Assembly (NCBI RefSeq): GCF_021278025.1
Contig: NZ_JAIBHJ010000002.1
Span: 195,043-259,042 of the forward strand
DNA: 64,000 nucleotides
Reading direction: 5' to 3'
DNA from: Motilimonas sp. E26
GTDB lineage: Bacteria; Pseudomonadota; Gammaproteobacteria; Enterobacterales; CBDFNC01
This document shows, in pieces, positions 49,256-52,209 of the stretch (its first letter is position 1; the number at the start of each line of letters is the position of its first letter). Below the pieces are notes generated by a model. The model searched no databases, was not told the DNA's origin, and saw nothing but the letters and a program-made list of their open reading frames with translations. The position numbers were made by a program, and so were the translations under genes.

Positions 49256-51163
49256 CTAAATCACTTGCTTAGGTGGTGCAAAATAGTAACCCTGCCCAGC
49301 ATTAACGCCAATACGTTTTAAAAAATCCCATTCTGCAGCATTTTCCACTCCAACAGCAATCACTTCAACCTGACTGTCAGCGCAACCACCAATAAGACTC
49401 CTGATGGCGACCTGATTCATCGGACGAATATGGATATCTCGCACTAAACTTGGGTGTAACTTGAGAATATCTATGTCACAGTCCTTGATGTATTGCATGC
49501 TGATTACATCCTGCCCTGCATGATCGACCGCCAGTCGGCAACCCAGCCCTTTTAATGCACGTAGAGACGGCATTAAACGCGCTTGGTGCTTGGCAATATC
49601 CTCTTCGGGCAATTCGATGATTAGCTTATTTAAAAGCTGCTTCGGCAGTTGCATTAATTCATAACGTAACCACTGCTGAAAACTTGCTTCCGCCACAGTA
49701 TTAGCACATAAGTTCAAACTCAAAGGTGAGCTAAGTTCACCACGCTGGCGCAATAAACCTAAGGTTTTTTCAGTCATCGCTCGGTCTATCTCGATGGTCA
49801 TGCCAACTTTAGCCGCCATGGGTAAAAACTCACCCGCATTGACAATTTTACCTTTTTCATCACGCAACCTAGCCATCACTTCATGGCCTGATTCTCGACC
49901 ATCCACAGCGCTATAAATAGGTTGTAAAAACAATAACATGCTGCGATTATCTAAAGTGTTTCGCAAAATAGAGCGCCAGCGAATACTGCCTTTAGCCATA
50001 TCGGGAGCCGCTTGCGAGGGTTCAAACATATACCAACCACTGGCACCTTCTAACCGCGCCGCTCGAACGGCTTTATCAACGTCGTCCATCACTAAGGTTG
50101 ATTTATTACCAATGAAATAGTTACTCACCCCTACATAATAAAAATCATTTGCTTCAATGATGCTGGGCAAATGAACTTTATTAAGCATTTTACAGAGCTG
50201 ATTGGCAATATCTTGTGTTTCTTTCAAAGAGACCTGGGGAAACAATAAGGCAAATTGCGCCCCCGCATAACGGGCATAAAATGCACCATTAAAGCGTAAG
50301 CCAAATGTCTTTATCACGCCGGCCACTTCTATTAAGATATCATCACCTTGCAGCGCGCCTATGGTGTGGTTAATTTCCCCCAAGCCCGCTAACTCAACCA
50401 ACATCACCGCCCCTGCCGCGAAACTATCATCACGCAGCGCGGCATCTAAACGGTTTTCAAACGCTAAACGATTGGCTAAGCCCGTTTTATCATCAACAAA
50501 AGCATTGGCACGAATATAAGTATCAAAGCGACTGCGCTCTTGCTTGGCATCATTTAGCTGCACTAATAAACTATCAATCACTTTAGCAGCACTACTTGGC
50601 CACTCTTCTAAATCTCGATGCGCATTTTTTTTGACTTGACCGAGAGCAATGAGACGCGCTCTTTTTTCCAATTTTTCTGCGCCAGAAAACTGCTGTTTAA
50701 GCCAACGAATACATACGATTATAGCGATAAATACAGTAATAAAAGCGATTAACAAACCTAAATAAGATTTATAGCCATAATCTAATAAACGAAATGGCTG
50801 CTGCACCCAAATGGCAACATAGAAGCGTGGATGCGCTTGCAGGTAATACTTATAAAACACGAATTCATCTTGCGACAACTTACTCACACTTTTAAATCGA
50901 TAAACAATACCATCATCATTAGCGACCTCGACCTTAGAAATACCGTGGGCACGGAGTAGATTAGGTAACCAAGAGGCAAATTCAGGACTACCTTGACGCG
51001 ATGCCAGCTGCTTGTCTATCACTTCGATCACTGCACCAATTTGGATTTCTTGCTGCTTATAAACCAGTTGCCGGAAACTAAAGGCTCCTCCAACTACAAC
51101 ACTGGCAGCTGAAGCGATAATGCACAAACAAATAAAGATGATATATCGATTGGTAAACTTCAT
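49256..51163 (-). CDS. csrD: RNase E specificity factor CsrD (MshH)
   Basis: This 635 aa membrane protein has two N-terminal helices (about 8-28 and 132-152) flanking a periplasmic sensor, a HAMP-like region, then GGDEF and EAL domains. Both catalytic sites are degenerate: the GGDEF loop reads AGAQF near residue 300 and the EAL motif reads EVM (in GHEVMARL near residue 430), so neither c-di-GMP synthesis nor hydrolysis is expected. E. coli CsrD (HRSDF, ELM) targets CsrB and CsrC RNAs for RNase E decay. The position at the head of the msh locus matches Vibrio mshH. Confidence 0.92.
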   Translation of the reverse strand: MKFTNRYIIFICLCIIASAASVVVGGAFSFRQLVYKQQEIQIGAVIEVIDKQLASRQGSPEFASWLPNLLRAHGISKVEVANDDGIVYRFKSVSKLSQDEFVFYKYYLQAHPRFYVAIWVQQPFRLLDYGYKSYLGLLIAFITVFIAIIVCIRWLKQQFSGAEKLEKRARLIALGQVKKNAHRDLEEWPSSAAKVIDSLLVQLNDAKQERSRFDTYIRANAFVDDKTGLANRLAFENRLDAALRDDSFAAGAVMLVELAGLGEINHTIGALQGDDILIEVAGVIKTFGLRFNGAFYARYAGAQFALLFPQVSLKETQDIANQLCKMLNKVHLPSIIEANDFYYVGVSNYFIGNKSTLVMDDVDKAVRAARLEGASGWYMFEPSQAAPDMAKGSIRWRSILRNTLDNRSMLLFLQPIYSAVDGRESGHEVMARLRDEKGKIVNAGEFLPMAAKVGMTIEIDRAMTEKTLGLLRQRGELSSPLSLNLCANTVAEASFQQWLRYELMQLPKQLLNKLIIELPEEDIAKHQARLMPSLRALKGLGCRLAVDHAGQDVISMQYIKDCDIDILKLHPSLVRDIHIRPMNQVAIRSLIGGCADSQVEVIAVGVENAAEWDFLKRIGVNAGQGYYFAPPKQVI

Positions 51164-51352
51164 ACATCCCTGAATATCGCGCCCATCAAAGCGCGTTAAT
51201 TAGCTATTTTTCCCACAGCTAATGTAACATGCAGCAGAGTTCGGACTATTCAGTTTTATATAAAAATGCGACACCGTAAGTCATTTCATTTATCCACAAC
51301 GACGTAACACAATAATTTGATGGTTGACGATGAAAAAATCCGTAACGCAGAC

Positions 51353-51388
51353 AAAGAAAAAGGGGCGATGCTGTCACATCACCCCCTT
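51353..51388 (-). terminator. Intrinsic terminator of the candidate RNA
   Basis: On the minus strand a stem of 6 GC-rich bp (51383-51388 with 51360-51365) plus 4 inner bp (51377-51380 with 51367-51370) is followed by TTTTTCTTT. It ends any transcript coming from 51.6 kb, about 190 bp before the csrD start. Confidence 0.75.
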
Positions 51389-51570
51389 GTCTAATGGGTC
51401 ACAGCATATCATCCGTGATAAAAACCCGCTCCATGCAATTCCTTGACCCTTACCCTTATCCCTAAGGTAATTGGTGTTAATTATTCCAAGTATCCAATCA
51501 AAAGCAGTATTTCACCACAAGCCATTAGACCCGCTATTCGCATTAACCATTCCGATAGCGTGAAACCCGA
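51353..51570 (-). ncRNA. Candidate CsrB/RsmZ-like regulatory RNA (or structured csrD leader)
   Basis: About 218 nt between a perfect -10 box and an intrinsic terminator. Seven GGA triplets occur before the terminator. Predicted hairpins by eye: 51533-51538 with 51555-51560 (GGA in loop), 51470-51474 with 51495-51499 (GGA in or next to loop), 51450-51458 with 51463-51470 (GGGA tetraloop, one bulge), 51396-51401 with 51444-51449, and inside it 51408-51411 with 51416-51419 (CGGA tetraloop). GGA in hairpin loops is the hallmark of CsrA-binding RNAs. It lies directly upstream of csrD on the same strand. Random GGA count in such sequence would be about 4-5, so the count alone is modest; loop placement is the stronger argument. 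Confidence 0.5.
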
Positions 51571-51576
51571 AATATC

Positions 51577-51607
51577 ATTATAACGACTTAACTATACACC
51601 GGAACAA
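51577..51607 (-). promoter_or_regulatory. Promoter of the candidate RNA upstream of csrD
   Basis: A perfect -10 TATAAT (minus strand, 51577-51582) has a -35-like TTGTTC at 51602-51607 with a 19 bp spacer (or TGTTCC with 18). The start would be near 51570. Two direct TGTAAG half-sites on the minus strand (51652-51657 and 51663-51668, 11 bp period) lie about 80-100 bp upstream of the start; TGTAAG is the left half of GacA/UvrY/VarA binding boxes. Confidence 0.5.
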
Positions 51608-52020
51608 ACATCAAAAAAATATAACAATTGCAATTAAACCACACCCCTTAACTTACATCTCACTTACATTTACGAAGGATCCTACTGATACTAAAGAGTT
51701 ACCCGTTAAAATATGTAAAGAATCAATAATAAAGGAGCTTTACCTACAAAAATAACAGCCAATATCTCACAAACAAAACAAACAATATCCTCACCCTAGG
51801 TTATTAATTAATGACTTCATTGCTCAACTATAAAAGCTGCTTAACCAGTTGCATTTATTATTTTGCCCACACAATGCACATGTTATTTCGAGAGTTTATA
51901 GCACTAGTTTGCTAACTATCAGCTACCTTAGTCAGCTCGTTTTAACATCAAACGTCATTAAGCTGTCATCTCAGCGGCTCATAATCTTACCGCCTAAAGG
52001 TATTTATCACAGAGGAAACT
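51608..52020. other. AT-rich intergenic stretch without a convincing gene
   Basis: This 413 bp stretch is AT-rich and holds no ORF I can support. It contains the 11-bp-spaced CTTACA repeat (51652-51668 on the plus strand) and a GGAG (51733-51738 region) that is not followed by a usable start codon. An 88-codon opening at 51849-52115 lacks a ribosome binding site and overlaps the better-supported small ORF at 52021, so I do not call it. Confidence 0.5.
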
Positions 52021-52209
52021 ATGGGATATCAACAGAATTCGAAATCATTAGAAGGCCAAAGACCACTATTAAACGCAATGCTTACCGGCCACTGTCACGC
52101 CAATATAATTTCTAATTTAGAGCCTAATGAGCGGGCCGCTAATTACTTTGATATTCACGCACATCAATTGCTCGATCCCATGGAAGTCATCATCTACTCA
52201 GACCATTAA
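52021..52209 (+). CDS. Small hypothetical protein (62 aa)
   Basis: I do not recognise this 62 aa product. It has a good ribosome binding site (GAGG, 6 nt before ATG) and no signal peptide or membrane helix. The middle is NERAANYFDIHAHQLLDP, and the protein has five His and an acidic C-terminal half. It lies 67 bp before the Hpt-like gene on the same strand, so they may be co-transcribed. No homologue can be named from the sequence alone, and a chance ORF is possible. Confidence 0.4.
   Translation: MGYQQNSKSLEGQRPLLNAMLTGHCHANIISNLEPNERAANYFDIHAHQLLDPMEVIIYSDH

Follow-up and report, generated by a model that had tools for sequence, protein, structure and literature searches.

Organization of the csrD locus in Motilimonas

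The window analysed here is a 64-kb stretch of the genome of Motilimonas sp. E26, a member of a marine genus (NZ_JAIBHJ010000002.1, 195,043-259,042; genome G000). It contains, on the minus strand, the csrD (mshH) gene (49256-51163), whose product has the GAPES4-GGDEF-EAL architecture in Pfam and matches the CsrD family NF008281 best and over its full length (627.9 bits, residues 3-634, short of the curated cut-off of 663; the second-ranking family reached 211.6 bits). Pilus genes, including mshL, come after csrD. On csrD's strand, 190 nt upstream of it, we located the predicted gene of a miniature CsrB RNA (51353-51583, minus strand, 231 nt) with a promoter, a 3′ module and a terminator.

The same arrangement, including the distance to csrD, was found in all four Motilimonas genomes compared: E26, M. 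cestriensis (G002), M. eburnea (G001) and G003. Among 59 relatives searched, the stretch was matched by these four only, and a plasmid collection searched with the locus gave no match. The csrD proteins of M. cestriensis and M. eburnea share 97% and 77% identity with that of E26. Each genome has one csrA and one UvrY ortholog over the cut-off. Between the terminator and csrD lies the element CATTTTTATATAAAACTG (51251-51268, minus strand), which has a similar CATTTTT(A/T)TAT stretch as counterpart in every one of the genomes. Upstream of the RNA's promoter a small divergent open reading frame of 62 codons (52021-52209, plus strand) gave no family match; by eye, M. eburnea has a similar reading frame.

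Predicted promoter, transcript and terminator

The preliminary description had derived the transcript from a perfect TATAAT on the minus strand. This hexamer is present (51582-51577, 189 bp from the activator box described below), and an RNA starting from it would be about 217 nt long. The hexamer TATAGT (51596-51591, minus strand), which had been overlooked, is 175 bp from the box and is the likelier -10 element. The 5′ end given above was placed according to the spacing in csrB genes; by this one rule the predicted RNAs have 231 nt in E26, 227 nt in M. cestriensis, 187 nt in M. eburnea and 143 nt in G003. The promoter block, T7GAT...GTAT, is recognisable in the four genomes.

The gene ends in an intrinsic terminator with a T run (51353-51388, minus strand). 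Its strong stem of 13 pairs (51388-51359) bears out the earlier description, the folding z-score of the terminator stretch (51394-51353) being -6.0, and a terminator is present in all four genomes. Folding of the whole RNA gave z -4.2, which rose to -1.85 upon removal of the terminator; low folding energy comes mostly from the terminator and was dropped as evidence for a Csr-type RNA. The 3′ module folded alone was not unusually stable (z -1.04).

A predicted csrB-type activator box far upstream of the promoter

In E. coli the UvrY site of csrB, TGTGAGAGATCTCTTACA, is centred at -183/-182 and is followed 5 bp downstream by TGTAGGAGA (PMC4682653). A predicted box of this UvrY/VarA/GacA type lies far upstream of the miniature gene: the inverted repeat TGTGAGATATTGGCTGTT (51754-51771, minus strand), the right half of which is degenerate. 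Five bp downstream of it stands TGTAGG (51743-51748, minus strand), occupying the position that the additional TGTAGGAGA element has at E. coli csrB; M. cestriensis has TGTAGT there, and neither M. eburnea nor G003 has kept the element. The preliminary description had missed this region (51772-51743) and had pointed instead to two TGTAAG half-sites 11 bp apart (51652-51668, minus strand; 51668-51663 and 51657-51652). The half-sites do exist, but they are not the csrB box; they read TGTAAC twice in M. eburnea and are absent in G003.

The box was scored with a matrix trained on csrB genes only, namely on the boxes of 18 of the genus's 19 csrB genes, found within the stretch examined; the nineteenth gene has a box further upstream than that stretch. 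On both strands of the 64-kb window the 19-mer starting at 51772 (minus strand) scored highest with 20.7 bits, followed by a match of 13.3 bits, and 4 Mb of random sequence (one strand) reached at most 19.8 bits. The homologous boxes of the other three Motilimonas genomes scored 23.6-25.6 bits, inside the range of the training boxes (22.0-27.2 bits), whereas the box in the window falls slightly below it. A box pattern allowing at most one mismatch, drawn partly from the candidates themselves, occurred at nine places in G001-G003, all of them upstream of a csrB gene or of the miniature RNA.

At the miniature locus of the four genomes 175, 175, 174 and 165 bp separate the box from the -10 element. 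For the 18 csrB genes the values are 174-175, 187 or 197-199 bp, and in two of them a second TATATT stands 153-156 bp from the box. The steps between the box to -10 distances are near one helical turn, and 165 bp falls one such step short of the csrB range.

Homology of the 3′ module to CsrB

The likeness to CsrB and RsmZ proposed in the preliminary description was examined with Rfam, which at the gathering threshold has no match at the locus. RsmZ/PrrB likeness found no support: RF00166 scored 15.9 bits against a gathering cut-off of 44, and no RF00166 match over the cut-off occurs in the four Motilimonas genomes. RatA, DapZ, PrrB_RsmZ, TtnuCD31 and ST7-OT3_4, which appeared at relaxed thresholds, are all far below their cut-offs. 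CsrB itself (RF00018) has four members each in G000, G001 and G002 and seven in G003, all 19 over the cut-off. The miniature RNA stays below the RF00018 gathering cut-off of 71 bits, and a whole-genome search down to E 1 returned only the 19 canonical copies.

Two covariance models were then built from the 19 csrB genes only, R1 comprising the 3′ module and the terminator, R2 the module without the terminator. R1 found the locus in all four genomes with 36.2-44.6 bits (E 2e-4 to 2e-6 per genome), ranking it directly after the csrB genes. Part of this score is due to the terminator, since opposite-strand matches at csrB terminators reach 28.7 bits, and the 44.6 bits of G003 lean on it. With R2 only the true csrB genes outscored the locus in G000 (41.4 bits, E 1.0e-6), G001 (36.3 bits, E 2.2e-5) and G002 (32.2 bits, E 2.8e-4); the next-best matches had 19.6 bits in G001 and 18.0 bits in G002, and none followed in G000 up to E 10. 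In a search space of 73 kb the 41.4 bits of the E26 locus correspond to E 1.5e-8. In G003 R2 gave 18.9 bits, which is not significant (E 0.86), so homology to the bona fide CsrB RNAs of the genus is clear in three of the four genomes and for the 3′ module only. In G003 the case for a relationship lies in the AGGGA hairpin together with the box, promoter block and terminator.

The homologous module (51395-51471, minus strand) consists of the AGGGA hairpin, the GGTCA/TGACC closing helix, GCAUGGAGC and AUCACGGAUGAU. With csrB it has in common the AGGGA hairpin, GTCA..GGA, GCANGGAGC, AUCACGGA and the closing GTCA/TGAC helix. In M. eburnea and M. cestriensis the GGGAG/UGGAG hairpin has one broken pair; the CGGA hairpin has three in M. 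eburnea, and the G003 match lacks both inner hairpins.

Compensatory changes were counted in an alignment of 27 matches (23 distinct), which was fitted to the structure and leans towards it; 92.5% of its pair cells are paired. The number of cells changed on both sides (19) exceeded that in shuffles (5.0; 0/500 as high), whereas neither the pairs changed on both sides (5 vs 3.2; 64/500) nor the further pair types (16 vs 14.4; 86/500) were exceptional. In 16 distinct csrB rows, as in G003, the closing helix has an A-U outer pair. The remaining three candidates have G-C at this place, and three csrB rows leave it unpaired; the G-C of the three candidates may represent one inherited change.

GGA triplets and their structural context

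Seven GGA triplets had been counted on the minus strand, and the count is right (first bases 51553, 51495, 51487, 51461, 51442, 51432 and 51414), but the number is what chance gives: 6.6 in dinucleotide shuffles and 4.5 in mononucleotide shuffles (p 0.13). In none of the four genomes does the number exceed chance (7, 8, 4 and 3 vs 6.6, 6.5, 4.1 and 2.6 in shuffles), and GGA enrichment was rejected as an argument for CsrB identity. Within the stretches matched by Rfam, the 19 csrB genes have 13-25 GGAs. The motif ANGGA, which is closer to the preference of CsrA, occurs 4, 4, 4 and 1 times vs 1.6, 1.7, 1.0 and 0.9 in shuffles (p 0.06, 0.07, 0.009 and 0.63), an excess that is a hint at most.

Of the three GGAs previously assigned to hairpin loops, the one in the GGGA loop is robust, with an unpaired probability of 1.0 in E26 and 0.98-1.0 in the other three genomes; the other two loops are weaker (0.48 at 51553 and 0.65 at 51414). 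The AGGGA hairpin is conserved and open in all four genomes; the CGGA and (G/U)GGAG sites are found in three and have weaker stems.

Other csrB genes and other genera

Several canonical csrB genes of the genus have features of their own. Tandem pairs about 0.7 kb apart occur at L013/L016 in G001 (contig C19) and at L044 in G003 (contig C117). In the L046 gene on the latter contig (~203974-204816) some 540 bp separate the activator box from the Rfam match downstream of it. This interval holds 3.3 tandem copies of a 54-nt unit (92% matches) with several GGAs, by which CsrA sites have apparently been multiplied; a -10 element of the usual form was not found at the usual distance. In L022, L023 and L025 the predicted start is 50-173 nt upstream of the Rfam match, yielding RNAs of 372-474 nt with 26-27 GGAs.

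Outside the genus, csrD was identified by its protein (E 1e-30) in 105 of 148 genomes searched, Motilimonas included. Searched with R1 up to E 10, the best 26 csrD loci of other genera gave no match; this model, having been trained on Motilimonas alone, could overlook an RNA that has diverged. Rfam, run on 19 sources of which three belonged to Motilimonas itself, found nothing in the 16 that were among these loci, and the best match of the csrB-only box matrix in the 26 had 12.7 bits. In 45 genomes of other genera, searched partly with stricter filters, the nearest canonical csrB on the same contig as csrD was about 12 kb away (by eye, among the matches listed); in draft assemblies the two genes are often on different contigs. 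Canonical csrB and csrD appear loosely linked by eye, on one contig, in three g25 genomes (12-14 kb) and five g35 genomes (18-46 kb).

Among the titles and abstract openings listed from the open-licence literature we found no description of a csrB-type gene adjoining csrD, and a term search of the main text of PMC13182010, on Motilimonas genomes, did not return csrA, csrB or csrD. Such searches have a trap in the nomenclature of Vibrio cholerae, where CsrD is one of the small RNAs and the decay factor is called MshH (PMC7858070).

A probable shortened CsrB paralogue beside csrD

The homology of the module in three of the four genomes, the predicted box and its spacing, the terminator and the conservation of the locus, all established computationally, point to the gene of a shortened, UvrY-activated CsrB paralogue with few CsrA sites and with a terminator before csrD, and this is probably what the locus is. 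The RNA looks derived from the CsrB family. Because it stays below the Rfam cut-off and is not rich in GGAs, we file it as a shortened CsrB variant rather than a plain member. The earlier proposal of a Csr-antagonist RNA beside csrD holds in so far as a Csr-type RNA is supported by the module homology, the predicted box and conservation in four of four genomes; most of the grounds originally given for it proved weak.

By analogy with csrB, phosphorylated UvrY, bound to the box some 180 bp ahead of the start, would activate transcription of the miniature RNA together with that of the full csrB genes. Transcription would stop 190 nt short of csrD, at the terminator of the RNA gene. CsrA would be bound in the loop of the AGGGA hairpin and, in the genomes other than G003, at three GGAs close by. 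Sequestering a few CsrA dimers, the RNA may act as a small extra CsrA antagonist under UvrY control. Its share of bulk CsrA titration would be small, because the full CsrBs of G000 carry 68 GGAs vs 7 in the miniature. RNase E initiates the decay of CsrB in E. coli by cutting immediately ahead of the terminator; CsrA blocks this step, and CsrD with EIIAGlc relieves the block (PMC7652899). As this end of CsrB is kept, the miniature should likewise be a substrate of CsrD and RNase E.

The location beside csrD may reflect a chance landing, feedback on csrD or a decoy in decay. The preliminary description had offered, as a second option, a CsrA-responsive leader and attenuator of csrD. With a leader acting in cis, UvrY-driven transcription would pass the terminator in part and enter csrD, the read-through would be set by CsrA or by folding, and Csr output would feed back on CsrD. 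The RNA does lie on csrD's strand, 190 nt upstream, in four of four genomes, and CsrA represses csrD expression in E. coli and Salmonella (PMC7652899); no positive evidence beyond the position was found. The strong 13-pair terminator speaks against read-through, and the A/T-rich CATTTTTATATAAAACTG element downstream of it is possibly csrD's own promoter. The module is, moreover, shared with the CsrB genes at other places in the genome. A single long pairing, GTCTAATGG/CCATTAGAC, was examined for a role as a switch; it is not conserved, since M. cestriensis has no counterpart of its 5′ partner. We therefore regard a leader as unlikely. There is likewise a slim chance that the miniature owes its retention to being the decay-entry piece of CsrB next to csrD rather than to bulk CsrA titration. 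It would then be a decoy or gauge under UvrY control which, by occupying CsrD/RNase E or by reporting free CsrA locally, would set the rate at which the full CsrBs decay.

Selection on the locus was judged from global alignments with M. cestriensis, M. eburnea and G003, given here in this order; the G003 box, though present, is unaligned in them. Identical positions numbered 38/40, 34/40 and 17/31 in the promoter block, 68/76, 61/73 and 44/60 in the 3′ module (17 positions being missing in G003), 38/40, 28/40 and 21/42 in the terminator stretch and 79/104, 47/77 and 44/103 in the 5′ half of the RNA. The spacer between box and promoter had 81/115, 62/114 and 35/79, and the stretch between terminator and csrD 147/188, 58/148 and 54/140. 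Four-fold sites of csrD were identical at 120/237, 54/188 and 48/166 positions. This yardstick is generous, because against M. cestriensis the spacers, too, exceed the four-fold sites; the contrast with the spacers is therefore the fairer one. In the comparison with M. eburnea, in which silent sites approach saturation, the promoter block (85%) and the 3′ module (84%) are the best-kept parts, the spacers having 39-54% and the four-fold sites 29%.

A functionless, decaying csrB duplicate would explain why the RNA is shorter, has fewer GGAs, is weakest in G003 and changes faster in its 5′ half. Since the promoter and the module are better kept than spacers and four-fold sites in M. eburnea, the gene is hardly a decaying copy; the counts of both parts against M. 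cestriensis and the presence of box and terminator in all four genomes speak in the same sense, and we consider decay very improbable. Just as improbable is a UvrY-activated small RNA now outside the Csr system, acting for instance by base-pairing. The chance-level GGA number and the lineage-specific 5′ half, by eye unlike CsrB, would agree with it; against it, the best-conserved transcribed part besides the terminator is the CsrB 3′ module, and the AGGGA hairpin is open in four of four genomes.

Why full CsrBs carry so many CsrA sites is hard to test. From a naturally short, conserved copy with 3-8 GGAs beside the gene of the decay factor one would learn what part of CsrB deserves to be retained, and also whether the supply of CsrB is coupled to its CsrD-driven decay. 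Genes of this sort can escape notice when only Rfam cut-offs and GGA counts are used.

Comparison with known systems

RNAs of the RsmZ/PrrB type (RF00166) combine GGA hairpins with a terminator, and the miniature RNA shares this general idea with them. With the genus's own CsrB RNAs (RF00018) it shares the 3′ module, the UvrY-type box, a similar distance from box to -10 element and the terminator. It differs from them in length (143-231 nt vs 283-474 nt in 18 of the 19 csrB genes), in the number of GGAs (3-8 vs 13-27), in a 5′ half that by eye is unlike CsrB, in adjoining csrD and in having no Rfam match at the cut-off. The predicted promoter region resembles that of E. coli csrB (PMC4682653) in its TGTGAGA-type 18-nt box, centred at about -180, and in the TGTAGG 5 bp downstream of the box; unlike there, the Motilimonas box has a degenerate right half. 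In Vibrio tasmaniensis csrB has been duplicated (PMC6262261), and there, as in Motilimonas, extra copies stand at new places with a VarA site upstream; CsrB3 and CsrB4 of V. tasmaniensis are described as conserved in sequence and structure, whereas the Motilimonas copy is shortened and lies beside csrD.
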